Assembly (NCBI RefSeq): GCF_002843315.1
Contig: NZ_MVDD01000004.1
Span: 1-64,000 of the forward strand
Origin: Labilibaculum filiforme
Lineage (GTDB): Bacteria > Bacteroidota > Bacteroidia > Bacteroidales > Marinifilaceae
Length of the DNA: 64,000 nt
Direction of reading: 5' to 3'
In this document: piece by piece, positions 11,217 to 24,092 of the stretch
Position numbering within the stretch: position 1 is the first letter of the stretch
Layout of the letters: each line of letters starts with the position of its first letter
Made by a program: the position numbers and the translations under genes
The notes under the pieces: generated by a model
What the model saw: only the letters and a program-made list of their open reading frames with translations
Told to the model about the DNA's origin: nothing
Databases searched by the model: none

Positions 11217-14200
11217 TTAAAATCCATCTTTTTTATCCACATAATCGCTAAAGCTATCAATTCCTAAATCGTTAATAGATTTTTTGCAGAATGAATAGAT
11301 AAAAGCAGATGCCAAACGAGCATTGGTTACCAAGGGAATGTTTAAATCAATCGCTGTTCTTCTTATCAGATAGTCGTTATTCAGCTCCGATTTGCTTAAG
11401 TTTTTAGGGATGTTAATTACTAAATCAACTTTTCGTTCCTTAATTAAATTTTGCGCAGTAATTGCTACATCTTCATCGGGCCAGCCAACACTTTCGATAT
11501 TTATTCCGTTCTCTTCCAAGAATTTTGCAGTTCCTCTAGTACCATACAATTTATGTCCTCTTTCTTCAAGCATTTTAGCGCTTTTTAAAAGCTCAATTTT
11601 TGAGCGAATAGGTCCACTACTAATAAGAATAGCACTCTTCGGAATCCGATAACCTACTGATAGCATAGCTTTTAAGATAGCATCGTAATAATCAGAACCA
11701 ATACAACCAACTTCGCCTGTAGATGACATATCAACCCCCAAAACAGGGTCTGCTTTTGATAGTCGTGAGAAGGAGAATTGGGAAGCTTTTATACCAATAT
11801 GCTCCAACTCGAACATAGATGGCAAGTTATTGGGTATAGTAACGTCCAACATTGCTTGAGTAGCAGTTTCGACAAAATTAAAGTCCATAACTTTCGATAC
11901 AAAAGGAAAACTTCTACTTGCCCGCAGGTTACACTCAATTACTTTTATGTCGTTATCTTTTGCCAGTAATTGCATATTGAATGGTCCGGTAATATTCAAC
12001 GATTTTGCAATTTTCCCTGCTATTTTTCGAATTCGTCGAATGGTTTCGAAATAAAGCTTCTGCGGCGGAAACACTAATGTTGCATCTCCAGAATGAACTC
12101 CAGCAAATTCAACGTGTTCCGAAATGGCATCGATTATAATTTCTCCATTTTTAGCTACCCCATCAAATTCAATTTCTTTGGCTTCCTGAATAAATTCACT
12201 TACCACCACAGGATATTGCTTAGAAACCTGAGCTGCTAAATCCAAGAAATGTCCCAATTCGTCGTGATTCGAAACCACATTCATTGCAGCTCCTGAAAGC
12301 ACGTAACTTGGCCGAATTAAGACGGGAAAGCCTACTTCATCAATAAAGTCGTTAATTGCTTCCTTACTGGTTAACTCTTTCCATCTTGGCTGATCAATCT
12401 TCAATTCATCAAGCATTGCGGAGAAGGTCTGGCGATTTTCTGCTCTGTCGATTGATTCTGGAGAAGTTCCCAAAACTTTAACATCTGCTTTATATAAACG
12501 CATTGCCAAATTTTGTGGGATTTGACCACCAACCGATACAATTACTCCTCGAGGTGATTCTAAATCGATAATATCCAAAACTCTTTCGAATGAAAGTTCA
12601 TCGAAATACAAACGATCACATACATCGTAATCGGTACTTACTGTTTCTGGATTGTAATTAATCATTACCGATCGTAATCCTTCTTTATTAACTGTGTTTA
12701 ATGCATTCACACTACACCAGTCAAACTCTACCGAAGACCCTATTCTGTAGGCCCCCGATCCCAATACAATAACCGATTGATTGTCGTCTACATAGGTGAT
12801 GTCATTTTCATCGCCACTGTAAGTTAAATAAACATAGTTGGTTTGTGCAGGATATTCTGCAGCAAGTGTATCAATTTGTTTTACAACAGGAACTATGCCT
12901 TTTGCTTTTCGATGTTTTCTCACCTCTAAAAGCTCCGATTGCATATCCGTATTATTCGGTTTTAGCACAAATCGGGCTAACTGAAAATCAGAGAAACCAT
13001 ACACTTTAGAAGCTTTAAGTACTGCATCAGGTAATTCTTGTAAGCTATTGTATTTCTGAAGGTCCCATTTTAATTTAGCAATGTGCTCCAGTTTGCTCAA
13101 GAACCATTTATCGATTTTTGTTAAATCGTGTATTTTATCGATAGAATACCCGTTTTCAAAAGCTTGTGCGATCGAAAAAATACGCATATCAGTTGGATGT
13201 GATAATTCACGATCAATATCTTCGAATTTAGAATGAACATTACCAACAAAACCGTGCATTCCCTGACCAATCATACGCAAACCTTTCTGAATGGCTTCTT
13301 CGAAATTACGACCTATGGCCATAACTTCTCCAACGCTTTTCATGCTGGACCCAATCTCTTTGGTTACCCCTTCAAATTTATTCAAATCCCAACGAGGAAT
13401 TTTACAAACCACGTAATCCAAAGCAGGCTCAAAACAAGCTGTAGTTGTTTGTGTTACCGTATTTTTAAGTTCATGCAAAGCATATCCTAAACCAAGTTTG
13501 GCAGCCACAAAAGCTAAAGGATATCCTGTTGCTTTGGATGCCAGGGCAGAAGATCTTGATAATCGTGCATTTACTTCAATAACACGATAGTCTTCCGAAT
13601 TAGGATCAAGAGCATACTGAACATTACATTCTCCCACTACACCCATATGGCGGATAATCTTAATGGCTAAAGACCTTAATTTGTGATACTCCGAATTTGT
13701 TAGTGTTTGCGATGGCGCAATAACAATACTCTCTCCGGTATGAATTCCCAGCGGATCAAAATTCTCCATATTACAAACAGTAATACAGTTGTCGTAAGCA
13801 TCCCTTACAACCTCATACTCTACCTCTTTCCAGCCTTTCAAGGACTCCTCTACCAATATCTGACTTGAATAGGAAAGAGCATTTTCTGCCAACTTTTCTA
13901 GTTCTGACATATTGGAACAAAAACCACTACCTTGTCCACCTAAAGTAAAGGCTGCACGTACAATAATCGGAAATCCTAAGTCTTCGGCGGCTTTTAAAGC
14001 ATCTGGAATAGATCCTACAGCAAAAGATTTTGGAGTTTTTACATCTATTTTGCGCAACTCGTTGGCAAATATCTCTCTGTCTTCTGTTTTAATAATTGTC
14101 TCTATTGGAGTACCTAAAACCTGAAGATTGTATTTTTTTAGTAAACCTGCATTGAATAGTTCAATACCACAATTTAATGCGGTTTGTCCTCCAAAAGCCA

Positions 14201-14456
14201 ACAAAATTCCATCTGGCTTTTCTTTTAAGATTACCTGCTCTACAAAAAACGGTGTAATTGGCAGAAAATAAATTTGATCGGCAACCCCTTTCGAAGTTTG
14301 TACCGTGGCAATATTGGGATTGATAAGTACCGTATAAATACCTTCCTCCTTCATGGCTTTTAATGCCTGAGACCCTGAATAATCAAACTCCCCTGCTTCA
14401 CCAATTTTAAGTGCTCCAGATCCTAATACCAGTACTTTCTTAATATCTTGCTTCAT
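11217..14456 (-). CDS. carB: Carbamoyl-phosphate synthase, large subunit
   Basis: 1079 aa, about the length of E. coli CarB (1073). It makes carbamoyl phosphate from ammonia, bicarbonate and two ATP for arginine and pyrimidine synthesis, with CarA supplying ammonia. Two homologous ATP-grasp halves are visible: the first begins VLVLGSGALKIGEAGEFDYS, the second VIVLGSGAYRIGSSVEFDWC near residue 560. Both contain the Ala-Gly-Gln/Gly-Gly-Gln-type loops (FGGQTALNCG and VGGQIPQNLA). An MGS-like allosteric domain occupies about 940-1079. The gene is last in the operon, 26 nt downstream of carA, so it shares the arginine-sensing leader far upstream. Confidence 0.96.
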   Translation of the reverse strand: MKQDIKKVLVLGSGALKIGEAGEFDYSGSQALKAMKEEGIYTVLINPNIATVQTSKGVADQIYFLPITPFFVEQVILKEKPDGILLAFGGQTALNCGIELFNAGLLKKYNLQVLGTPIETIIKTEDREIFANELRKIDVKTPKSFAVGSIPDALKAAEDLGFPIIVRAAFTLGGQGSGFCSNMSELEKLAENALSYSSQILVEESLKGWKEVEYEVVRDAYDNCITVCNMENFDPLGIHTGESIVIAPSQTLTNSEYHKLRSLAIKIIRHMGVVGECNVQYALDPNSEDYRVIEVNARLSRSSALASKATGYPLAFVAAKLGLGYALHELKNTVTQTTTACFEPALDYVVCKIPRWDLNKFEGVTKEIGSSMKSVGEVMAIGRNFEEAIQKGLRMIGQGMHGFVGNVHSKFEDIDRELSHPTDMRIFSIAQAFENGYSIDKIHDLTKIDKWFLSKLEHIAKLKWDLQKYNSLQELPDAVLKASKVYGFSDFQLARFVLKPNNTDMQSELLEVRKHRKAKGIVPVVKQIDTLAAEYPAQTNYVYLTYSGDENDITYVDDNQSVIVLGSGAYRIGSSVEFDWCSVNALNTVNKEGLRSVMINYNPETVSTDYDVCDRLYFDELSFERVLDIIDLESPRGVIVSVGGQIPQNLAMRLYKADVKVLGTSPESIDRAENRQTFSAMLDELKIDQPRWKELTSKEAINDFIDEVGFPVLIRPSYVLSGAAMNVVSNHDELGHFLDLAAQVSKQYPVVVSEFIQEAKEIEFDGVAKNGEIIIDAISEHVEFAGVHSGDATLVFPPQKLYFETIRRIRKIAGKIAKSLNITGPFNMQLLAKDNDIKVIECNLRASRSFPFVSKVMDFNFVETATQAMLDVTIPNNLPSMFELEHIGIKASQFSFSRLSKADPVLGVDMSSTGEVGCIGSDYYDAILKAMLSVGYRIPKSAILISSGPIRSKIELLKSAKMLEERGHKLYGTRGTAKFLEENGINIESVGWPDEDVAITAQNLIKERKVDLVINIPKNLSKSELNNDYLIRRTAIDLNIPLVTNARLASAFIYSFCKKSINDLGIDSFSDYVDKKDGF

Positions 14457-14482
14457 TTTATTTGCGAATTTAAAGGGCTTAA

Positions 14483-15574
14483 CTATTGCTTTTTACTTTT
14501 ATATTCTTCCATCATATTAATGAAATCATCGAATAAGAATTCGGTATCTGTTGGACCACTGGAAGCTTCAGGGTGAAACTGAGAAGCAAAAAATGGTTTA
14601 CTCACATGCTTAATTCCTTCACATGTGTTATCATTCGCATTAACGAACAAAGGTTCCCACTCCTTTGGTAAAGTATCCATATTAATGGCGTATCCGTGAT
14701 TTTGAGAGGTGATAAAGCAACGTTTACTTCCTTTCAATACAACCGGCTGATTGTGACTACGGTGTCCGTACTTTAGCTTATAGGTATCAGCACCAGCAGC
14801 CAATGCCATTAGTTGAGTACCTAAACAAATACCCATAATTGGAGTATTCTTAGTAAAAACACTTGCGAGATTTGCAATTGCTTCTGTATTTTGTTTTGGA
14901 TCTCCAGGACCATTAGAAATAAATAATCCATCGTATTCTTCTTGAGTAAAATCGTAATCGTGTGGAACTCTAATTACGGTAGTATCACGTTTTAACAAAC
15001 AACGAATAATGTTATTTTTCACACCACAATCCAACAATAAAACTTTGTGTTTTCCATTGCCGTAAACTAATTTCTCTGTTGTGCTTACTTGCGCTACCAG
15101 ATTCTCTAAATTAGGATCTTTCCATTCAGGTTCTTTGCCTTCAAAAACAATTTTAGCAAGCATACTGCCTTGTTCGCGAAGTTTTTTAGTTAATGCTCGA
15201 GTATCAACACCATAAATTCCTGGAATTTTGTGTTGTTTCATCCAATCTCCCAGACTTAAACTCGCATTCCAATGACTGAATTCCTCGGTGTAATCTGATA
15301 CAATAAATGCAGATACCTGAATTTTTTCCGATTCATAAAAACGAAACAAGTCATCTTCCTGAAGTGTTCCAGGAACACCATAGTTTCCAATTAAAGGAAA
15401 AGTACTAACCAAAATCTGTCCTCGGTACGAAGGATCGGTTAAACTTTCTGGATAACCTGTCATTGCAGTATTAAACACCATTTCTCCGGAAATAGATTCC
15501 TGGTATCCAAAAGATGTGCCGACATACTCCGATCCATCTTGTAAAATTAATTTAGCTTTTGTCTCTTCTGACAT
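14483..15574 (-). CDS. carA: Carbamoyl-phosphate synthase, small (glutaminase) subunit
   Basis: 363 aa. It hydrolyses glutamine and channels ammonia to CarB. The N-terminal CPSase domain (about 1-140) has the expected FNTAMTGYPESLTDPSY block. The C-terminal class I glutamine amidotransferase domain shows the nucleophile Cys in MGICLGTQLM and the catalytic His and Glu in QFHPEASSGP. Start ATG at 15574, 44 nt after argH and 26 nt before carB. Placing carAB in an arginine operon makes carbamoyl phosphate follow arginine demand. Confidence 0.96.
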   Translation of the reverse strand: MSEETKAKLILQDGSEYVGTSFGYQESISGEMVFNTAMTGYPESLTDPSYRGQILVSTFPLIGNYGVPGTLQEDDLFRFYESEKIQVSAFIVSDYTEEFSHWNASLSLGDWMKQHKIPGIYGVDTRALTKKLREQGSMLAKIVFEGKEPEWKDPNLENLVAQVSTTEKLVYGNGKHKVLLLDCGVKNNIIRCLLKRDTTVIRVPHDYDFTQEEYDGLFISNGPGDPKQNTEAIANLASVFTKNTPIMGICLGTQLMALAAGADTYKLKYGHRSHNQPVVLKGSKRCFITSQNHGYAINMDTLPKEWEPLFVNANDNTCEGIKHVSKPFFASQFHPEASSGPTDTEFLFDDFINMMEEYKSKKQ

Positions 15575-15618
15575 AAAAGTTCTATAAAATGGTTAAATAT
15601 AAATTTCTTTTCAATGAT

Positions 15619-16956
15619 CTAAATTCTATTCAATAAATTCATGTAGGCCTCTTTGGTTTTGTTAAAGTTAAAACCAATGAAAATCTCATTCATCTTATCT
15701 ACAATTTTATCATTACATAAATTTCCAATACTGCCTTCGTGAACGTGTTTCACGCTACCTTTATATTCAAATTTACCTTCTTCCACAATTTGTCCTATCT
15801 TCTTGTAAGCATCGCGAAAAGGAACCCCGTTCAATACCATCTGGTTCACTTCTTCTACAGTAAACATGTACTTATAACGCTCATCCTCTAAAACATTTTT
15901 ATTAATTTTCACCTCGGAAAGCATGATTCTTGTCATTTCCAAACAAGCAATCATTTTATCAAACGCAGGCATGAAAAATTCCTTTGTGAGCTGATAATCT
16001 CTATGATATCCGGAAGGAAGATTGGAGGTAACAGCCTGAATTTGTGCTGGCAACATTTGTAAAGCATTTGCATGTGCCCGAATTAATTCAAATACATCAG
16101 GATTCTTTTTGTGAGGCATGATACTGCTACCAGTTGTTAATTCATCAGGAAAACTTAAAAAGTTGAAATTCTGACTGTTGTAAAGACAAGCATCCATCGC
16201 TAATTTCCCAATGGTCATGGCCATATTTGCAATAGCAGACAATACTGAAAATTCCATTTTTCCACGTCCCATTTGCGCATAAACCACATTATAACTTAAG
16301 TCTCTAAAACCTAACAATTCGGTAGTCATTCGTCTGTTTAATGGAAAAGAGGAACCATAGCCGGCTCCAGATCCTAATGGATTCTGATTAACCACTTTAT
16401 AAGCCGCTTGCAACACCATCATATCGTCGGTTAGACTTTCGGCATAGGCCCCAAACCACAAACCAAATGAAGATGGCATAGCAACCTGTAAGTGAGTATA
16501 TCCAGGTATTAATACATCCTTATTTTCATTGCTCTTTGCAATCAACTCATCAAAGAGCAATCTGCCTTCCCTAACAATTTCTTCTAGTTTATTTCGGGTA
16601 AATAGTTTTAAATCCAACAAAACCTGATCATTTCTAGATCTACCACTATGAATTTTTTTTCCAATATCTCCCAAAGCTAAAGTGAGTTGATATTCGATTT
16701 GAGAGTGGACATCCTCTGTGCCATCTTCAATTACAAAAGCATCATTTTTTATCGAAGAATAAATCTTTCGTAATTCTTCCTGAATCAATTTTAATTCTGT
16801 TTTCTCCAATAACCCTATAGATTCGAGCATTTCAATATGTGCAAGCGATCCAAGTACATCAAAGGCTGCCAATTGTACATCCAATTCGCGATCCATTCCA
16901 ACAGTAAATTGTTCTATTTTTTTGTCGACTTTTACGCCTTTGTCCCAAAGTTTCAT
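15619..16956 (-). CDS. argH: Argininosuccinate lyase
   Basis: 445 aa. It splits argininosuccinate to arginine and fumarate, the last step of arginine synthesis. The fumarase/aspartase superfamily signature GSSIMPHKKNPD is present near residue 275, with the catalytic serine in this loop. The HSGRSRNDQV block near residue 110 and TGYTHLQ-like block (PGYTHLQVAMPSS) near 150 are also as expected. Slightly shorter than E. coli ArgH (457). It follows the deacetylase gene in the same operon by about 77 nt, the largest gap inside the cluster. Confidence 0.96.
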   Translation of the reverse strand: MKLWDKGVKVDKKIEQFTVGMDRELDVQLAAFDVLGSLAHIEMLESIGLLEKTELKLIQEELRKIYSSIKNDAFVIEDGTEDVHSQIEYQLTLALGDIGKKIHSGRSRNDQVLLDLKLFTRNKLEEIVREGRLLFDELIAKSNENKDVLIPGYTHLQVAMPSSFGLWFGAYAESLTDDMMVLQAAYKVVNQNPLGSGAGYGSSFPLNRRMTTELLGFRDLSYNVVYAQMGRGKMEFSVLSAIANMAMTIGKLAMDACLYNSQNFNFLSFPDELTTGSSIMPHKKNPDVFELIRAHANALQMLPAQIQAVTSNLPSGYHRDYQLTKEFFMPAFDKMIACLEMTRIMLSEVKINKNVLEDERYKYMFTVEEVNQMVLNGVPFRDAYKKIGQIVEEGKFEYKGSVKHVHEGSIGNLCNDKIVDKMNEIFIGFNFNKTKEAYMNLLNRI

Positions 16957-17033
16957 AGTAATTCTCTTTAAAGTAGGTGTGAGTATATGTTATTGTTTAA
17001 TTGTCTGATTCGTATTTTATAACTTTTTTAGGC

Positions 17034-18104
17034 TTATATCTTCAAACCGTTCAACAAGTTATAATATTTTTTAATTCCATTCTCAATTTCATCAATATAG
17101 ATGAACTCATTGGCAGTATGAGATCGGGCAGAATCTCCAGGTCCTAATTTTAAAGTTGGAAATCCCTTCATTATCGCTTGATCAGAGGTCGTTGGCGAAC
17201 CATAATAAGTCATGCCTAAACTTATTCCATTTTGAATAAGAGGATGTTCCAAAGGAATTCCAGAAGAATTCATTCTGAAAGATCTTGCTGTAACTTCACT
17301 TTCTAATTTTTCGACGATAATTGCAAATGCTTTTTCGTTAGAATAATGCTCGTTTGTACGAACATCCACAACAAATTTGCAGGAGGATGGAATAACATTG
17401 TGCTGTTTCCCTGCATTAATCTGGGTTACAGTCATTTTAACTGCACCCAACATTTCCGATTCTAAAGCGAATTTATAGGAATGAAGCCATTCTATATCTC
17501 TCATTGCAATAGTTATAGCATTTACTCCCTCGTTACGGGCAGCGTGTCCTGGAACCCCAATTGCATCGCAATCCAACACCATTAAACCTTTTTCGGCAAT
17601 AGCCATTTCCATAAGCGTAGGCTCTCCTACAATACCAACATCTATACGACCAATTTCATCCTGCACCAACTCAAAACCTCCGGTTCCTGATATTTCCTCC
17701 TCTGCCGAAGCTACAAAAACACGATTATATGCCTGATTTGTCCCTTCTAAAGCAAGAAAACTAGCAAATAAGGACACTAAACACCCTCCAGCATCATTAC
17801 TCCCCAAACCGTATAATTTACCATCAGTTACTTCCGGATTGAAAGGATCTTTGGTATATTTTTCAGAAGGATGTACTGTATCCAAATGAGAATTTAGTAA
17901 CAGAACCGGTTTATTATCATCAAAATCCTTATTGTAAGCCCAAACATTATTTCCTTTTCGGTGAACCTGATAACCAAAACCATTCAATTTTTGCTCTATT
18001 AAATCGGCAACTTTATGCTCCTCTTTACTGTAGGATTGAATTGAAATTAGTTGTTTTAAAGTGCTCAAAGCTATTTCGCTATACTTTTTTACATCCATCT
18101 CCAT
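17034..18104 (-). CDS. argE: M20-family N-acyl-ornithine (acyl-citrulline) deacylase
   Basis: 356 aa. Zinc-dependent M20 peptidase fold. Metal-binding blocks are visible: NSHLDTVHP (His and following Asp), GSNDAGGC (bridging Asp), SAEEEISGTGG (catalytic Glu and ligand Glu), VGEPT, and the last His in SRSHTANEFI. Position between argB and argH fits removal of the acyl group from N-acyl-ornithine or N-acyl-citrulline. In Bacteroides the pathway uses N-succinyl rather than N-acetyl intermediates and deacylates at the citrulline stage; which acyl group is used here is not decidable from sequence. Start ATG 18104 lies 3 nt after the argB stop. Confidence 0.88.
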   Translation of the reverse strand: MEMDVKKYSEIALSTLKQLISIQSYSKEEHKVADLIEQKLNGFGYQVHRKGNNVWAYNKDFDDNKPVLLLNSHLDTVHPSEKYTKDPFNPEVTDGKLYGLGSNDAGGCLVSLFASFLALEGTNQAYNRVFVASAEEEISGTGGFELVQDEIGRIDVGIVGEPTLMEMAIAEKGLMVLDCDAIGVPGHAARNEGVNAITIAMRDIEWLHSYKFALESEMLGAVKMTVTQINAGKQHNVIPSSCKFVVDVRTNEHYSNEKAFAIIVEKLESEVTARSFRMNSSGIPLEHPLIQNGISLGMTYYGSPTTSDQAIMKGFPTLKLGPGDSARSHTANEFIYIDEIENGIKKYYNLLNGLKI

Positions 18105-18107
18105 AAG

Positions 18108-18887
18108 CTAAGAATTAACGATTTGTGTTCCTGAAGAATGATTAGTTTCAATGGAAACAAAATTCCCAATTACCACTTCTTCAACTCCTTTAGATAAGGC
18201 ATAGAATGCATTTTGTGTTTTGGGTAACATTCCAGTATTTATTTTATTCAGCTTTACCATTTCTGCACATTTTTCACTTGAAAGAACTGGCATTACACTG
18301 CTATCATCATCTGGATTTATCAGCACACCAAGCTTTTCGAAACTGTATACCAATTTTACTTTGTAAAAACGACTCAAAGCAACTGCAACTTCCGTTGCTA
18401 CAGTATCTGCATTCGTATTAAATAACTGACCGTTTCCATCGTGAGTAATTGGAGCAATTACCAGCACTGAATTACATTCAATTTGCTTGCATAATGCCAA
18501 GGTATTCACTGCTGTAATGTCACCTACAAAACCAAAATCAACCTTTGAATTACTTCTCTTCTCTGCCCTAATTAAATCTAAATCAGCACCACACATTCCC
18601 ATCGCATTAACGCCAAGAGCTTGTAAAGCTGCAACAATATTTTTATTGATTAAACCAGCATAAACCATGGTCACCAATTTCAGATTTTCTGCATCCGTAA
18701 TTCGTCTACCATCAACCATTTTGGTTTGAACACCTAAACTGCCAGCTAAATCAGATGCAAGCTTCCCTCCTCCATGAACCAAAACAATCTTGCCATTTAA
18801 ATTCGAAAAGGCATCTAAAAAATCATTTAGTTTTTCGGGATCGTCAATTACGTTTCCTCCAACTTTTACTACTGTTAAATCTATCAT
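18108..18887 (-). CDS. argB: N-acyl-L-glutamate kinase
   Basis: 259 aa amino-acid kinase fold. It phosphorylates N-acetyl- (or N-succinyl-) glutamate. The N-terminal VVKVGGNVID and VLVHGGGKLASDLA blocks form the phosphate and substrate sites; a later FNTNADTVATEVA block is the nucleotide/substrate segment. The start codon overlaps the argD stop by 4 nt (ATGA-type), so translation is probably coupled. Without the N-terminal extension seen in arginine-inhibited hexameric ArgB enzymes, it is likely the short form, which is usually less feedback-sensitive (inference). Confidence 0.93.
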   Translation of the reverse strand: MIDLTVVKVGGNVIDDPEKLNDFLDAFSNLNGKIVLVHGGGKLASDLAGSLGVQTKMVDGRRITDAENLKLVTMVYAGLINKNIVAALQALGVNAMGMCGADLDLIRAEKRSNSKVDFGFVGDITAVNTLALCKQIECNSVLVIAPITHDGNGQLFNTNADTVATEVAVALSRFYKVKLVYSFEKLGVLINPDDDSSVMPVLSSEKCAEMVKLNKINTGMLPKTQNAFYALSKGVEEVVIGNFVSIETNHSSGTQIVNS

Positions 18888-20017
18888 ACTGGTACAATTT
18901 GGGTTATTTTTTGAAATGCATGAATGAATTGATCTACTTCCTTTTTAGTAATTGAAAGTGGTGGTAACAGACGAAGTGTTGAACTACCAGATGATCCAGT
19001 AAAAATTCCAAATTCTTCAAGAAGTTGCTTTCTAACTTTAGGCATATTTTCCAGATCAAGACCAATCATTAATCCCTTTCCCCTTATTGCTTTTATTGCT
19101 TTATCGTCTTTTAATTTAGAAATTAAATAATCTCCTAATTCAGTTGCATTTTCAATTAGCTTTTCCTCTTCAATTGTTTCCAATACAGCCATTCCTGCTG
19201 CACAAGCCAAATGACTTCCTCCGAAGGTTGTTCCCAACATTCCACTCCAAGCTTTTATAGCTGGCGAAATAATCACCCCTGCAATTGGGAACCCGTTTCC
19301 CATTCCTTTAGCTGTTGTGATAATATCCGCCTTTATTCCTGCGTGTTGATGTGCAAAGAATTTCCCTGTTCTTCCATAACCCGATTGAACTTCGTCGAGA
19401 ATTAAAATTACCTTATGACTTTTGCACAAACTTTCTGCAGCTTTCAAAAACTCAGTTCCAGGTTCAATAACTCCATTTACACCTTGTATTCCTTCTATAA
19501 TTACTGCGGCAACATCATTTTTACTAATTTCCTTTTCTAGAGCAGAAATATCATTCATTTCAACAAAAACAACCTCATGTTTTGCATTAAAATCTGACGA
19601 TAAAACAGGATTATCGGTAATTGCTAAAGCACCACTGCTTCGTCCATGAAAAGCACCTTTTATCGCAATAATTTTAGATTTCCTTGTATGAAAAGATGCT
19701 ACTTTTAAAGCATTTTCATTTGCTTCAGCACCTGAGTTGCATAAAAATAGATTATAATCATCATATCCTGAAAGAACCCCCAATTTACTGGCTAACTTCT
19801 CTTGCATATCATTTCTTACTGCATTTGAATAAAAACCTAAACAATGAAGTTGATGTTCAATTCTAAAAATATAGTGTGGATGACTATGACCAATTGAAAT
19901 TACGCCATGTCCGCCATAAAAATCTAAATATTTATTTCCTTTATCATCCGATATATAGGATCCTTTTCCATTTACCAAATTTATATCGTAACAATTATAT
20001 ACGTTAAATAATTCCAT
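18884..20017 (-). CDS. argD: N-acyl-ornithine aminotransferase
   Basis: 377 aa class III PLP aminotransferase. It converts N-acyl-glutamate semialdehyde to N-acyl-ornithine. The cofactor lysine lies in TTAKGMGNGFPIAGV near residue 235; upstream are the phosphate-binding CNSGAEANENALK segment and the Asp of ILDEVQSGYGRTG. The gene sits directly after argC (11 nt) and overlaps argB by 4 nt. Length is a little below E. coli ArgD (406). Confidence 0.94.
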   Translation of the reverse strand: MELFNVYNCYDINLVNGKGSYISDDKGNKYLDFYGGHGVISIGHSHPHYIFRIEHQLHCLGFYSNAVRNDMQEKLASKLGVLSGYDDYNLFLCNSGAEANENALKVASFHTRKSKIIAIKGAFHGRSSGALAITDNPVLSSDFNAKHEVVFVEMNDISALEKEISKNDVAAVIIEGIQGVNGVIEPGTEFLKAAESLCKSHKVILILDEVQSGYGRTGKFFAHQHAGIKADIITTAKGMGNGFPIAGVIISPAIKAWSGMLGTTFGGSHLACAAGMAVLETIEEEKLIENATELGDYLISKLKDDKAIKAIRGKGLMIGLDLENMPKVRKQLLEEFGIFTGSSGSSTLRLLPPLSITKKEVDQFIHAFQKITQIVPV

Positions 20018-20028
20018 TTTGCTTTTTT

Positions 20029-20994
20029 TTAAAATCCAATCGGCTTTAATCCTAGTCCTAATATTTCCGGCATTCCAAATAATAAATTCATATTCTGAAC
20101 TGCCTGACCAGAAGCACCTTTCAATAAATTATCAATCACTGAAATAATCATCAGTTTACTCCCATGTTTTTCAAGGTACAATACACATTTATTGGTATTT
20201 ACAACCTGTTTTACATCGGGTACTATATTGGTTATTGAAACGAATGGATGATTTTTATAATATGATTTGTACTTTTCAATGGCTTCCTCAACAGACCAAT
20301 CACAATCTGTATAAATGGTTGCCATTATTCCTCGACTAAAGTTTCCTCTTACAGGAATAAAATTGATCGATTTATTAAAGTTTGGCTGAAGTTGTAAAAC
20401 TGTTTCTGTGATTTCAGCCAAATGCTGATGAGTAAATGCTTTGTAAACCGATACATTATTGTTTTTCCAGCTAAAATGTGAAGTGCTTGTTGGATTCTGA
20501 CCTGCTCCGGTTGATCCGGTAATCGCATTAACATGAACCTCTTCCTTCAATTTATTTTCTTTCGCTAAAGGCAATAATCCCAATTCAATACATGTAGCAA
20601 AACATCCTGGATTAGCAATTTTATCCGCACGCTCAATTTTTTCCTTATTTATTTCGGGCAAGCCGTAAACGAATCCATTTCCATTTGTTCTCGGTCTAAA
20701 ATCAGTACTTAAATCGATAATTTTCACGTTTGCTGGCAAAACATTCTCTTCCAAAAATAATTTTGTTTTCCCATGTCCCGAGCAAATAAATAAAACATCA
20801 ATTGCCTGAAAATCTGCTTCGGAAAACATCAAGTTAGTTTCGTCTAACAAATCTCGGTGGACATCCGAAATTGGATGTCCCCTATGACTTGTACTCTGAA
20901 CAAAATTAATATGTGCTTGGGGATGCCAGATCAATATCCGTAATAACTCTCCTGCCGTATAACCTGCTCCACCTATAATTCCTACATTCACCAT
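20029..20994 (-). CDS. argC: N-acyl-gamma-glutamyl-phosphate reductase
   Basis: 321 aa, type 1 ArgC. It reduces the acyl-glutamyl phosphate made by ArgB with NADPH. The N-terminal GIIGGAGYTAGELLR is the nucleotide-binding loop; the active-site cysteine is in ANPGCFATCIELG near residue 130; GSTGAGQNP follows. It starts 2 nt after the argG stop. Confidence 0.95.
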   Translation of the reverse strand: MVNVGIIGGAGYTAGELLRILIWHPQAHINFVQSTSHRGHPISDVHRDLLDETNLMFSEADFQAIDVLFICSGHGKTKLFLEENVLPANVKIIDLSTDFRPRTNGNGFVYGLPEINKEKIERADKIANPGCFATCIELGLLPLAKENKLKEEVHVNAITGSTGAGQNPTSTSHFSWKNNNVSVYKAFTHQHLAEITETVLQLQPNFNKSINFIPVRGNFSRGIMATIYTDCDWSVEEAIEKYKSYYKNHPFVSITNIVPDVKQVVNTNKCVLYLEKHGSKLMIISVIDNLLKGASGQAVQNMNLLFGMPEILGLGLKPIGF

Positions 20995-20996
20995 AA

Positions 20997-22196
20997 TTAT
21001 TGTTTGTTTACGGTGTAATATATCTTCAATGAATTCGCCAGAATATTGGTAAATCCTTTTGCATCATCAGCAGTCCATCCTTTGCTACTTTCTCCATACT
21101 GACCAAATAAATCAGTCATTAAGTCGTTTGGTGAAGTAATTCCCTCCACAAAGAAATGCTTAGGATTTAAATTTAAAATAACTGTTCCAGTCACCTTCTT
21201 TTGAGAATCAACCAGAAAAGTTTCCATATTTCTCATTACTGGCTCTAAATATTGAGCCTCGTGCAGTAGCATACCATAGAAATTTGCAATTTGCTCTTTC
21301 CAATGCATTTGCCACTTGGTAAGCGTGTGTTTTTCCAGCGTTTGATGAGCTTTTATAATCATCAAGGGTGCAGCAGCTTCAAAAGCGACTCTTCCTTTTG
21401 TCCCAATAATTGTATCGCCAATGTGCATATCTCTTCCAATGCCAAATTGAGATCCAATAGCTTCAATTTTTTTAATTGCTTCGAGTGGATGTTTTACTTT
21501 TTCGCCATTTACACTTACCAATTCTCCTTTTTCAAAACCAATGATTAGTTTCTCCGATTCCGTTTTAACAACTTGCTTAGGATAAGCCTCTTCTGGTAAT
21601 GGTTGATCTGATGTTAATGTTTCCTTACCACCAATACTTGTTCCCCAAATTCCAGCATTAATCGAATATTTCATTTTTTCGAAATTGGCTGAAATGCCAT
21701 TTTCTTTTAGGTAATTGATCTCCGTTTCCCTGCTTAACTCCATATCTCTTGTAGGAGTAATAATTTCGGCATTAGGAGCCATTATTTTAAAGATCAAATC
21801 AAATCTTATCTGATCATTACCTGCTCCGGTACTGCCGTGAGCGATATAATCCGCATCAATAGAATGGGCAAATTGAGCGATTGCCATAGCTTGAAAAGCT
21901 CTTTCGGAGCTTACAGATAATGGATAAGTATTGTTCTTCAAAACATTTCCCATTATCATGTATTTAATACATTTATCGTAGTATTCTGTGGTAATATCCA
22001 GAGAAGCGTGCTGTACAACCCCCAGTTGCTTAGTTCTGTTCTCTATATCAGCCAATTCTGCATCACTAAAGCCTCCTGTATTCCCCAAAACTGTGTACAC
22101 ATCCATGTTTAACTCCTTAGATAAATAAAGTGCACAGTAAGTTGTATCCAAACCTCCGCTATATGCTAATACTACTTTTTTCTTAGTTGATGTCAT
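20997..22196 (-). CDS. argG: Argininosuccinate synthase
   Basis: 399 aa. It joins citrulline and aspartate using ATP. The N-type ATP pyrophosphatase loop AYSGGLDTTYCA is at residues 10-21, and the citrulline-binding HGSTGAGNDQIRFD block is near residue 120. It is the second gene of the operon, between the GNAT gene (66-nt gap) and argC. The length agrees with typical ArgG (about 400-445). Confidence 0.95.
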   Translation of the reverse strand: MTSTKKKVVLAYSGGLDTTYCALYLSKELNMDVYTVLGNTGGFSDAELADIENRTKQLGVVQHASLDITTEYYDKCIKYMIMGNVLKNNTYPLSVSSERAFQAMAIAQFAHSIDADYIAHGSTGAGNDQIRFDLIFKIMAPNAEIITPTRDMELSRETEINYLKENGISANFEKMKYSINAGIWGTSIGGKETLTSDQPLPEEAYPKQVVKTESEKLIIGFEKGELVSVNGEKVKHPLEAIKKIEAIGSQFGIGRDMHIGDTIIGTKGRVAFEAAAPLMIIKAHQTLEKHTLTKWQMHWKEQIANFYGMLLHEAQYLEPVMRNMETFLVDSQKKVTGTVILNLNPKHFFVEGITSPNDLMTDLFGQYGESSKGWTADDAKGFTNILANSLKIYYTVNKQ

Positions 22197-22262: not shown

Positions 22263-22832
22263 TTATTTTTTCTCCTTTTTATTGGGATCGTAAAGCATAC
22301 CAGTACACAAACACATTTTTCGATTGGTTCGTTGCAGTATGTCGTAATTCACACAACCGCTACATCCTTTCCAAAATGTATCATCAGTAGTTAGCTCCGA
22401 AAAGGTAACTGGTCTATACCCTAATTCTGAATTGATTTTCATTACAGGAAGACTGGTGGTGAGTCCAAATATTTTGGCCTCAGGATAACGTTTTCTGGAT
22501 AACTCGAATGCCTTAGCTTTAATCATTTTAGCTAAACCTACCGCTCTGTAATCCGGATCGACAATAAGTCCCGAATTAGCAACATACTTGCCGTGTTCCC
22601 AGGTTTCTATATAGCAGAAACCTATTACTTTCTCCTGATCAAAGGCAATGATTGCCTTTCCTTCCTGAATTTTTTGTACGATGTACAAAGGTTCTCTTTT
22701 TGCAATTCCTGTACCGCGAATTTTCGCTGCACTTTCAATCATATCACAAATTTCTTGGGCATAATCGTAATGCCTCAAACCTGCTATAATGACACTTAAC
22801 TTTTGCTCAACTTCCATTGATGTATCTATCAT
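22263..22832 (-). CDS. GNAT acyltransferase, likely N-acylglutamate synthase of the arg pathway
   Basis: 189 aa and first structural gene of the operon. A GNAT fold is recognisable: the strand VANSGLIVDPDYR leads into the acyl-CoA loop R96-x-x-G-x-A101. As no other gene of the cluster could catalyse the first step (acylation of glutamate), this is the best candidate for an ArgA-like enzyme; in Bacteroides-type pathways the donor may be succinyl-CoA. The C-terminus is unusual for GNAT proteins: four cysteines (157, 160, 174, 176) in C-x2-C and C-x-C pairs suggest a bound metal. Start chosen at ATG 22832; an internal ATG five codons later is an alternative. The four attenuator-like leaders end just upstream. 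Confidence 0.75.
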   Translation of the reverse strand: MIDTSMEVEQKLSVIIAGLRHYDYAQEICDMIESAAKIRGTGIAKREPLYIVQKIQEGKAIIAFDQEKVIGFCYIETWEHGKYVANSGLIVDPDYRAVGLAKMIKAKAFELSRKRYPEAKIFGLTTSLPVMKINSELGYRPVTFSELTTDDTFWKGCSGCVNYDILQRTNRKMCLCTGMLYDPNKKEKK

Positions 22833-22848
22833 TTTATTCTAACTAAGA

Positions 22849-22989
22849 CTAAATTTCCCAAAAAAGTGCTACCGCAGTTAAGCATAACCACCTATTATTT
22901 AATTCTACAAAAAAGTCCGCTCTTGCGGTTTGATTGTTGTGCTCTCGAAAACATCGTCTTCGAAAATCTAAGGAGTTGAAAAAATTCAT
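22849..22989 (-). CDS. Leader peptide 4 of the arg operon (46 aa)
   Basis: Translated from ATG 22989: MNFFNSLDFRRRCFRE is the start. Arg10-Arg11-Arg12 (CGA AGA CGA) and Arg15 form the control stretch. Two further Arg residues occur at 23 and 33. Its 3' half contains a GC hairpin with a U run (22909-22928), and the stop is 16 nt before the GNAT start. It is longer than the other three leaders, so it could be a hybrid of leader and translational-coupling element. Reality as a peptide is inferred from context and the Arg run. Confidence 0.65.
   Translation of the reverse strand: MNFFNSLDFRRRCFREHNNQTARADFFVELNNRWLCLTAVALFWEI
22909..22928 (-). terminator. Attenuator hairpin 4 (inside leader 4)
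   Basis: Minus strand: CCGC-AAGA-GCGG, then AC and six T. The stem is only four G-C pairs with a tetraloop, so weaker than the three upstream terminators. ACCGCA of this hairpin (22924-22929) can instead pair with TGCGGT at 22871-22876, which would open the terminator. A second weak hairpin with a T run follows at 22860-22884. Confidence 0.5.
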
Positions 22990-23011
22990 TTTTTTTAATT
23001 TTAGTTTATAC

Positions 23012-23044
23012 AAAAAAAGCTTACAGTCCGTGAACAGTAAGCTT
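23012..23044 (-). terminator. Attenuator terminator 3
   Basis: Minus strand AAGCTTAC pairs with GTAAGCTT over a 12-nt interior, followed by a run of T. It lies 5 nt after the stop of leader 3 and before leader 4. Confidence 0.75.
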
Positions 23045-23049
23045 ATAAA

Positions 23050-23151
23050 TTACGATATTTCAATTACAGAAATAGCAAGCTCATCTGTTCCTCCTGGGTA
23101 ACAGTTACTGCGCAAATGGCGTCGACTTTGAGTATAGATGATTTGCTTCAT
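23050..23151 (-). CDS. Leader peptide 3 of the arg operon (33 aa)
   Basis: Begins MKQIIYTQSRRHLRSN; Arg10-Arg11 and Arg14 (CGA CGC, CGC) are the control codons. Downstream in the same ORF a stem CTGTT-A-CC / GG-AACAG (over the codons for Cys17-Tyr18-Pro19 to Thr22) could act as the pause or anti-antiterminator hairpin. Terminator 3 follows its TAA directly. Confidence 0.75.
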   Translation of the reverse strand: MKQIIYTQSRRHLRSNCYPGGTDELAISVIEIS

Positions 23152-23173
23152 TTGTTTCTGTAAAAATTAGTTC

Positions 23174-23206
23174 AAAAAAAAGGCTTACCGGTAAAAACGG
23201 TAAGCC
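23174..23206 (-). terminator. Attenuator terminator 2
   Basis: A perfect 9-bp stem (GGCTTACCG / CGGTAAGCC) with a 7-nt loop and eight T on the minus strand. It is the strongest hairpin of the leader and lies between leaders 2 and 3, 18 nt after the leader 2 stop. Confidence 0.85.
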
Positions 23207-23224
23207 TTTAAATATTGTTGTAAA

Positions 23225-23311
23225 TCACTGATTAAACGACAATAAGACACCAACCGCTTTCCCTAAGGGAGCACTCTGTCTTCGTCGTAGTATGTTGTGA
23301 AATAAAATCAT
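23225..23311 (-). CDS. Leader peptide 2 of the arg operon (28 aa)
   Basis: Begins MILFHNILRRRQSAPLG; Arg9-Arg10-Arg11 (CGA CGA AGA) form the control stretch. TATTGT near the 3' end of the ORF can pair with ACAATA just past its stop, a possible competitor of terminator 2. No Shine-Dalgarno site is visible, which is normal in this phylum. Confidence 0.78.
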   Translation of the reverse strand: MILFHNILRRRQSAPLGKAVGVLLSFNQ

Positions 23312-23338
23312 TTATTAAATTTTCCTTGTTTGTTAATC

Positions 23339-23366
23339 AAAAAAAAGGCTTTCCGACAGGGAAAGC
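23339..23366 (-). terminator. Attenuator terminator 1
   Basis: Minus strand GCTTTCC-CTGTC-GGAAAGC, then C and eight T: a 7-bp stem intrinsic terminator 29 nt after the stop of leader 1. Confidence 0.85.
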
Positions 23367-23395
23367 TTGGAAAAAATTACACCAATGCTTATACC

Positions 23396-23452
23396 TTATC
23401 GTTGCGATAAAGATCTAATAAAGCGTCGTCGAATAATTTGCATATGTTCCAT
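23396..23452 (-). CDS. Leader peptide 1 of the arg operon (18 aa)
   Basis: The whole peptide is MEHMQIIRRRFIRSLSQR. Five of 18 residues are Arg, with Arg8-Arg9-Arg10 encoded CGA CGA CGC. An 8-bp hairpin (23394-23412, loop CAA) covers its last codons and stop, the usual place for a ribosome-pausing 1:2 hairpin. It starts about 25 nt downstream of the -7 box. Confidence 0.8.
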   Translation of the reverse strand: MEHMQIIRRRFIRSLSQR

Positions 23453-23474
23453 GCTTCTTTTTATTTGTTGTCTA

Positions 23475-23482
23475 CAAAGATA
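23475..23482 (-). promoter_or_regulatory. Promoter -7 box of the arg-car operon leader
   Basis: The minus strand reads TATCTTTG, an exact match to the Bacteroidota -7 consensus TAnnTTTG. It lies just upstream of leader peptide 1, and no other such box is seen between it and the GNAT gene. I could not place a convincing -33 TTG at 19-21 nt. Confidence 0.6.
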
Positions 23483-23801
23483 AATGCAAAAATCAGTAAT
23501 ATCCTAATAAATCAAGTTTTTTTTTCAAGCCCTACTAATTTATAACCTTTGCATAAAAAAAACCATACTCTTTTTACTTCAATACTCTATTAAATTATAG
23601 ACCTCATTTTATTAATTGAATATTTTCACTGTAAAACCAATGAATACAAGAATCAAATTTAATTTGCAAAACCTTTCTTTTCGTCTAAATAACAAGACGT
23701 TATGTATTTTTAACACTTTTAAATTCAATTTTTCACTAACCATTTATAACTTGCGCCGTAGAATTCAATTAAGTATCTAAAATTAAAAGATTTGTAATAC
23801 C

Positions 23802-24092
23802 ATGGAGTTAAAAAAAATTGTTGGATTTGTGCTGTTGGGTTTAGCTATTATTACTTTCTTCCTCTACTTATCCTTACCTTTTATTCTATCTGGTTCTAGT
23901 AAAATTATTTTACTAACAGCATCTGTGTATGTACTGAATAAAGTTTTCTTCTATTCTTCCCTTTATATTTTGGGGAAACAATTCATATTAAAATATGGAA
24001 AATACCTTCCTAAATGGATTGAAAAGCGATTACTTAAACTTCTTAAAGTACAAACTGTAGTTGAAAACGCTCAACACAACATAATACCATAA
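23802..24092 (+). CDS. Small membrane protein, unknown function
   Basis: 96 aa. Two hydrophobic helices (about 7-28 and 34-58, the second less hydrophobic) are followed by a basic tail rich in Lys, Leu and Ile. No family is recognised. It stands alone between the arg leader (divergent) and gltBD. The start ATG at 23802 is the only one that keeps the first helix. It is judged real from its clean composition and isolated, unshadowed frame. Confidence 0.55.
   Translation: MELKKIVGFVLLGLAIITFFLYLSLPFILSGSSKIILLTASVYVLNKVFFYSSLYILGKQFILKYGKYLPKWIEKRLLKLLKVQTVVENAQHNIIP

Follow-up and report, generated by a model that had tools for sequence, protein, structure and literature searches.

The leader and its operon

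The window, that is, the whole stretch of 64,000 nucleotides analysed, belongs to Labilibaculum (Marinifilaceae), the nearest named relatives of its GNAT protein being those of L. euxinus A4 (97%) and L. manganireducens (96%). On the minus strand, four short Arg-rich ORFs (P1 to P4) make up a leader between a TATCTTTG box, which we take to be a -7 promoter box of the Bacteroidota TAnnTTTG type, and an operon of the order GNAT-argG-C-D-B-E-H-carA-carB, where argH, carA and carB are names that we presume from the sequence (Table 1). A first-pass annotation, made from the sequence alone, had already pointed to this box and to four consecutive minus-strand ORFs with Arg runs, and both were recovered at the same positions. 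A second TAnnTTTG box between P1 and the GNAT gene is absent in 21 of 22 loci, one being present in G024; the check for a promoter between the last hairpin and the GNAT gene, proposed along with that annotation, thus brought up no internal box in these 21 loci.

Table 1. Positions of the leader and operon features in the window; P1 to P3, with their helices, form units 1 to 3
Feature	Position	Strand	Remarks
-7 promoter box TATCTTTG	23482-23475	(-)	TAnnTTTG-type box 5' of P1 in 22/22 array loci
Leader peptide ORF P1, MEHMQIIRRRFIRSLSQR	23396..23452	(-)	RRR in 22/22 genomes with P4
Unit 1 antiterminator 5' arm AAGCATTGG	23382..23390	(-)	starts 5 nt past the P1 stop codon
Terminator 1 (stem 23366-23348, T run) and antiterminator 3' arm CCAAGCTT (23370-23363)	23339..23370	(-)	100% of cells paired; 22/22
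Leader peptide ORF P2, MILFHNILRRRQSAPLGKAVGVLLSFNQ, including LRRRQSAPLGKAV	23225..23311	(-)	conserved
Unit 2 antiterminator 5' arm AAAGCGGT...GTCTT	23244..23260	(-)	inside P2; AAAGCGG invariant, 15/15
Terminator 2 (stem 23209-23179 and T run)	23172..23209	(-)	99.4% of cells paired; 22/22
Leader peptide ORF P3, MKQIIYTQSRRHLRSNCYPGGTDELAISVIEIS, including SRRHLRSNCYPGGTDELA	23050..23151	(-)	conserved
Unit 3 protector arm CTGTTACC (23104-23097) and antiterminator 5' arm GAACAGATGAGCTT (23090-23077)	23077..23104	(-)	
Terminator 3	23012..23044	(-)	one stem mismatch in the window; 96.4% of cells paired; 22/22
ORF P4, MNFFNSLDFRRRCFREHNNQTARADFFVELNNRWLCLTAVALFWEI, including FRRRCFREHNNQ	22849..22989	(-)	46 aa; 16 nt between its stop and the start codon of GNAT
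GNAT acetyltransferase, first structural gene	22263..22832	(-)	Acetyltransf_1, 28.9 bits (cut-off 20.7)
argG, argC, argD, argB, argE, argH, carA, carB (gene order)	11217..22196	(-)	
Strong terminator-like hairpin 3' of carB	11156-11123		

Some minor features of the surroundings may be added. An element GCAAAGG (GCAAACC in G014), at 23552-23546 (-) in the window, precedes the -7 box by 69-70 nt in 15 of the 17 array loci compared and was not found in the two loci of genus g17; it could be an activator site. Searching the own genome for further copies of the leader gave only short matches of 17-54 bases, with E values of 0.05 or worse. As for ornithine transcarbamylase (matches L182, at G000:C9:86629, and L188), its gene stands outside the window's operon; the strong match lies elsewhere in the genome, and the gene before it is presumably a carbamate kinase. 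No Arg leader precedes ornithine transcarbamylase in the six loci read, of eight in the genus, and the weaker, pyrB-like match has a leader hairpin and T run of its own.

All four ORFs stand upstream of GNAT in each of the 17 close relatives, window included (L001-L017), which cover the window's genus and the genera g5, g7, g9, g10 and g17. Of the 56 genomes of the family, a profile of P4 matched 22, spread over 6 of 17 genera, and all 22 carry P1-P3 (the array genomes); in the five found beyond the first 17, P1, P2 and P3 are likewise present and GNAT follows P4. These five stand outside the alignments. Selection counts, alifold consensus folding, helix statistics and folding z-scores refer to 15 of the 17 genomes, G007, with a leader near-identical to that of G008, and G028, whose last 700 bases are identical to those of G017, having been left out. 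At greater distance, 13 GNAT loci (L018-L030, about 58-65% identity) showed no such units, two of the 13 (L019 and L026) having short upstream sequences of only 213 and 522 bases; they belong to a GNAT set of 40, of which 30 were read upstream. Among the genomes of the order, 94 gave a GNAT match, the upstream sequence being read in the 30 with loci.

Related arrangements were seen in family f63. The genome G200 has two units built on other peptides (MKSIFQNPYRRFIKFIT and MNRYYKNPCRRCLPGL); in both, a terminator is present and an antiterminator arm directly follows the stop codon. In G330, there are two terminators, the second preceded by MSNMFCRPRRSFYPRNHRFR, and then a P4 homologue ending in FTVELNNKWLSLNAVCLFWET before GNAT; this genome, which also bears Arg leaders, is the only one outside the array genomes where P4 was seen. 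Moreover, single matches to an Arg leader with a terminator occur in other Bacteroidales (e.g. L038, L032), and some of them could be real.

Arg codons, terminators and predicted competing helices of units 1 to 3

The Arg runs that stand before the arg genes are RRR in P1, RRR in P2 and SRRHLR in P3, in 22 of 22 genomes. Their core codons vary only synonymously (CGA/CGC/CGT, and CGA/AGA at R10 of P3 and R11 of P2), and conservation of the runs of P1-P3 in close relatives, which the first-pass annotation had named as a check, was thus borne out. The ratio of nonsynonymous to synonymous change in the 15 non-redundant genomes was 0.59 for P1, 0.52 for P2, 0.37 for P3 and, the lowest, 0.24 for P4; since much of the later sequence of P2 and P3 overlaps the antiterminator arms, constraint on the RNA contributes to their values too. 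The arrangement is far from that of random sequence: if any short ATG ORF that encodes RR and lies close to a terminator is counted as a unit, the leader of 650 bases has three, whereas 1000 dinucleotide shuffles of it averaged 0.01 and never gave more than 1.

With respect to codon choice, CGN accounts for 12 of the 17 Arg codons in the four ORFs, P4 included, and CGA alone for 9 of 17, whereas in 31 genes of the window CGA makes up 15% of the Arg codons and AGA is the commonest (40%). The leader Arg codons are, therefore, mostly of one codon box and not a balanced mix, with CGA favoured; as they are mostly CGN while AGA prevails in the window genes, the sensor may read mainly a CGN-decoding tRNA.

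The intrinsic terminators reported behind the first three ORFs hold up, exactly three being present 5' of P4 in 22 of 22 genomes. Terminators 1 and 2 were listed by the standard scan, and the third, which lies outside the standard list, was found by a custom scan only. In the region 22500-24000, both strands considered, the standard scanner gave six terminator-like sites against 0.6 expected, two of them on the leader strand. Covariation in terminators and antiterminators did not rise above column shuffles and was, for this reason, set aside as a proof of the helices, most changes being one-sided G-U swaps, with one compensatory change in terminator 2. Hence, the case for these helices rests on their conservation and on the margin by which they beat slid controls.

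In every unit, the terminator 5' arm finds its best partner at an antiterminator site whose position is roughly constant across all 15 non-redundant genomes. In unit 1, AAGC-A-TTGG, just 3' of the stop codon, pairs with CCAAGCTT; the named helix of 8 pairs has 89% of cells paired, compared with 15-71% in slid versions, and the best duplex formed with the terminator arm, roughly constant in position in all 15 genomes, ranges from -7.7 to -10.6 kcal/mol. When the upstream sequence of each genome was shuffled, 0-24 of 200 shuffles were as good, which is moderate support. Several pairs of the named helix are disrupted in g17, and four genomes of the window's genus lack one or two of them. In unit 2, AAAGCGG and GTCTT together form pairs with the arm and the loop of the terminator; the eight pairs counted reach 93%, against 44-60% for slid versions, and the site, about the same in 15 of 15, was equalled by 2-65 of 200 per-genome shuffles, support being again moderate.

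Unit 3 gives the clearest picture. Here, GAACAGATGAGCTT (or GGACGG...) can pair either back with CTGTTACC or forward with the terminator 5' arm AAGCTTACTGTT, so that the 1:2, 2:3 and 3:4 pairings are mutually exclusive. The antiterminator has 96.7% of cells paired, against 36-58% in slid versions, and no more than 2 of 200 shuffles were as good in 13 of the 15 genomes, which is strong support, the counts in g17 being 9 and 76; the latter makes this helix weak in G034 (76 of 200). The protector has 100% of cells paired, against 41-72% when slid, with one compensatory pair, and 10 of 500 shuffles reach its score, a result which, as the tool itself warns, related sequences alone can produce. When alifold was run without the terminator 3' arm, the antiterminator was recovered for unit 3, only in part for unit 1, and not for unit 2. 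Protector-like helices are also predicted in units 1 and 2, that of unit 1 overlapping region 2 only slightly. By prediction, then, an antiterminator that competes with the terminator, and whose arm a ribosome at the end of the ORF would mask, is present in units 1 to 3, with strong support in unit 3 and moderate support in units 1 and 2.

The fourth ORF and rival readings of the leader

The C-terminus of P4, F..E.NNKWL.LT.VALFWE, is kept as a peptide over its last 20 codons while third positions vary freely, and in all 22 loci its stop codon lies 7-17 nt 5' of the GNAT start. According to the first-pass annotation, all four leaders are attenuators, the fourth using a weaker terminator (22909-22928) within its own ORF. 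In favour of that reading, the window's P4 has RRR-x-x-R, and an Arg run is present in P4 of most relatives; a 19-nt repeat found around the terminators has a fourth copy, 74% identical, at 22856-22874; and, of 17 loci, 7 retain both the stem and the T run of the hairpin at 22909-22928. These seven, however, all belong to the window's genus. Four pairs of the hairpin are kept in 10 of the 17 aligned loci and it is gone in genera g5, g7, g9 and g17, that is, outside g1 and g10, so that comparison with relatives led to its rejection. The custom scan gave no terminator for P4 of the window and, in 2 of 22 genomes, a candidate at another position within P4. In the 15 genomes folded, z-scores of this region lie on either side of zero (one at -2.6), giving no folding signal. 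Furthermore, what is left of the Arg run is NRLRLR or QLRLR in g17 and HRR in G330, the C-terminus being retained in both. An alternative fourth terminator at about 22856-22880, suggested by repeat D1, was also discarded, its T run being broken in several other genera. As no terminator is conserved, P4 is devoid of a defining feature of an attenuator, and the leader is better described as three attenuator units and a different fourth ORF. The serial attenuation proposed at the outset can, therefore, be retained for units 1-3 and not for all four, what is conserved in the fourth being its C-terminal peptide; that P4 is a fourth attenuator is very unlikely. Even less credible is a reading of the leaders as metabolite riboswitches or T-box RNAs with incidental ORFs. 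The structured leader with alternative helices would suit it, but no Rfam family reached its gathering score in 22500-24000, the ORFs and the identity of their Arg residues are conserved through synonymous change, and no common aptamer-like core was seen among the three units, their antiterminator arms lying at or in the ORF ends.

With three attenuators and a separate P4 as the preferred description, two roles for P4 can be considered. It may be a nascent-chain sensor or a coupling ORF, whose C-terminus would arrest or pace the ribosome before GNAT and add a translational step; a coupling or nascent-chain effect on GNAT translation is plausible given that the P4 stop codon lies so near the GNAT start in all loci. 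The conserved C-terminal peptide with varied third positions agrees with this role, as does the same position of P4 in G330, from another family. The fungal arginine attenuator peptide, whose nascent chain brings about arrest when arginine is high, is also an arginine-related leader peptide before an arginine-pathway gene; its logic is the opposite of that expected for P1-P3, and it could be an analogue of P4 only. Against a sensor, P4 matches no family in Pfam or NCBIfam and is predicted as a lone helix (pTM 0.38), and a free small protein is equally possible. In the latter case, P4 would be a small functional protein, for instance a partner of the GNAT enzyme, and its Arg-rich start would be incidental. 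Peptide-level conservation and the presence of GNAT as the next gene in 22 of 22 family loci fit such a protein, as does the order sample, where P4 was found in its own genome only (1 of 295). Its 46 aa without a family and the unexplained N-terminal enrichment in Arg speak against it, as does its occurrence, outside the array genomes, in G330 only. A class-wide profile search returned the own genome and 30 genomes with weak matches (best E 0.0013), the two inspected of these 30, L148 and L152, being judged chance. The sensor remains a tentative proposal, somewhat short of an even chance, and the small protein is tentative to the same degree. In either case, P4 is a separate element under selection at the peptide level, probably acting through its translation or nascent chain or as a small protein.

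ArgR, the proposed mechanism and Arg leaders in other systems

Of the 56 family genomes, 24 have the arginine repressor ArgR (PF01316), and none of these 24 is among the 22 with the array; G000, too, gave no match. By genus, it occurs in 0 of 6 array genera versus 9 of 11 others. The Fisher probability of this exclusion is 3e-8 over genomes and 0.002 over genera, values that ignore shared ancestry, and the pattern may go back to a single event or two in the tree. Neither ArgR nor the array was found in ten family genomes, six of which belong to genus g16 and are 64-84% complete. As for family f63, ArgR was not found in G330 (82% complete), and G200 has a second GNAT operon, its GNAT match lying on another contig at a distance of about 0.3 kb from ArgR, which is either a complication or contamination. 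In non-array operons of the same family, argR lies within about 2 kb of GNAT (G200:C77:66219-67243; G328:C387; G327:C150). On this distribution, leader-peptide control appears to stand in for ArgR in the Labilibaculum lineage, and perhaps replaces it widely in the phylum.

The conserved peptides, the synonymous variation of the Arg codons, the terminators in 22 of 22 genomes, the antiterminators in 15 of 15 and the lack of ArgR make ribosome-mediated attenuation by Arg codons, in series, a well-supported reading of units 1-3. In the proposed mechanism, when arginine is plentiful, the ribosome would finish P1, and then P2 and P3, covering the antiterminator arm, so that the terminator forms and transcription would have to pass three successive stops. 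When tRNA-Arg is uncharged, the ribosome would stall on the Arg run, the antiterminator arm would pair with the terminator 5' arm and RNA polymerase would continue. The three gates would multiply, resulting in a very low basal expression and a steep threshold. In a toy calculation with 90% termination per unit, one unit gives a 9-fold range and three a 729-fold range, the half-maximum moving from 44% stalled ribosomes with one unit to 77% with three; these are numbers of a model, not measurements.

Overall, the leader very probably consists of three attenuators of the his/trp type, in series, responding to charged tRNA-Arg and standing in for ArgR, with P4 as a separate element. A broader proposal, in which leaders replaced ArgR across the Bacteroidota, the three gates of Labilibaculum form a cooperative switch and P4 is a nascent-chain sensor, making up a four-step cascade with two sensors, is doubtful, and slightly less probable than either role of P4 taken by itself. 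Should the three-unit reading hold, a series of attenuators for the same signal would offer a natural test of steep, low-leak switches without a repressor protein, and the alternation of ArgR and leader inside one family would open the swap from a protein repressor to a leader to direct study.

Attenuation by a single leader is classical for the his, trp and leu operons of enterobacteria. The present units resemble these attenuators in having an ORF with control codons for the amino acid of the operon and competing protector, antiterminator and terminator pairings, and differ from them in the amino acid, arginine, in the three units in series per signal, in the conserved fourth ORF and in the host, Bacteroidota. 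Multiple leader ORFs within one leader mRNA, each a ribosome-sensing switch, are described for Salmonella mgtCBR, where two ORFs respond to ATP and proline, the signals act additively and structures like intrinsic terminators are lacking (PMC3641672); here, in contrast, there are three units with intrinsic terminators and one amino acid in place of two different signals. In Salmonella speF, consecutive Arg codons in orf34 sense arginine through ribosome pausing, an Arg-codon run in a leader ORF thus serving as arginine sensor, but this is a single ORF that acts on Rho termination, RNase G decay and polyamine-gene translation (PMC6386406), in place of the intrinsic terminators and arg operon found here. 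Sensor-terminator modules repeated within one leader are also known as tandem T-boxes, the modes of action of which are called unknown by the source (PMC7583486), and as tandem riboswitches, B. clausii metE being an example cited in PMC3641672; they sense tRNA or metabolite directly by RNA, without a leader peptide. For Flavobacterium psychrophilum, clues for leader-peptide attenuation before amino-acid operons have been given, in a passage that does not mention arginine (PMC9723704), and carA leaders of other kinds are mentioned in passages of two further papers (PMC8632094, PMC4997734). In the open-licence literature, searched by titles and the starts of abstracts, no arginine leader attenuator of an arg operon, Bacteroidota included, and no triple leader attenuator for the same signal was found. 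Judged by its conservation across related genomes, the triple Arg attenuator of Labilibaculum, with its distinct fourth peptide, is a real and conserved arrangement.

Finally, Arg leaders were looked for in 76 distant genomes (Cytophagales, Balneolaceae, Flavobacteria, Chitinophagaceae, Bacteroidales and others), taken from 80 named loci after leaving out four of Labilibaculum. An Arg-rich ORF, defined as one of 12-50 aa with at least 3 Arg in its last 14 residues and lying upstream of GNAT, stands before the same operon in 44 of the 76, the mean over 40 shuffles each being 6.7 and the maximum 12. ArgR scored over the cut-off in 14 of the 76 genomes, and the ORF was present in 3 of these 14 versus 41 of the 62 without ArgR (Fisher 0.005, with relatedness and genome completeness left aside). 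These results suggest, on the evidence of ORF counts, that control of the GNAT-arg operon by Arg leader peptides is widespread, the triple array being a local elaboration. The single leaders end in FRFRSPRTA, IPRRR, RRPLGV and similar sequences; as the 13 inspected by eye are mostly not followed by a T-run terminator, their mechanism may differ. Among loci L064-L139, Arg-rich ORFs within 350 bases upstream of GNAT include those of L077 (-213..-141), L091 (-170..-104), L115 (-253..-127) and L121 (-286..-232). Four loci from Chitinophagaceae and similar groups (L102, L103, L112 and L118) have a leader of about 43 aa upstream of GNAT, in part ending like FSVRPIPFWVRR.
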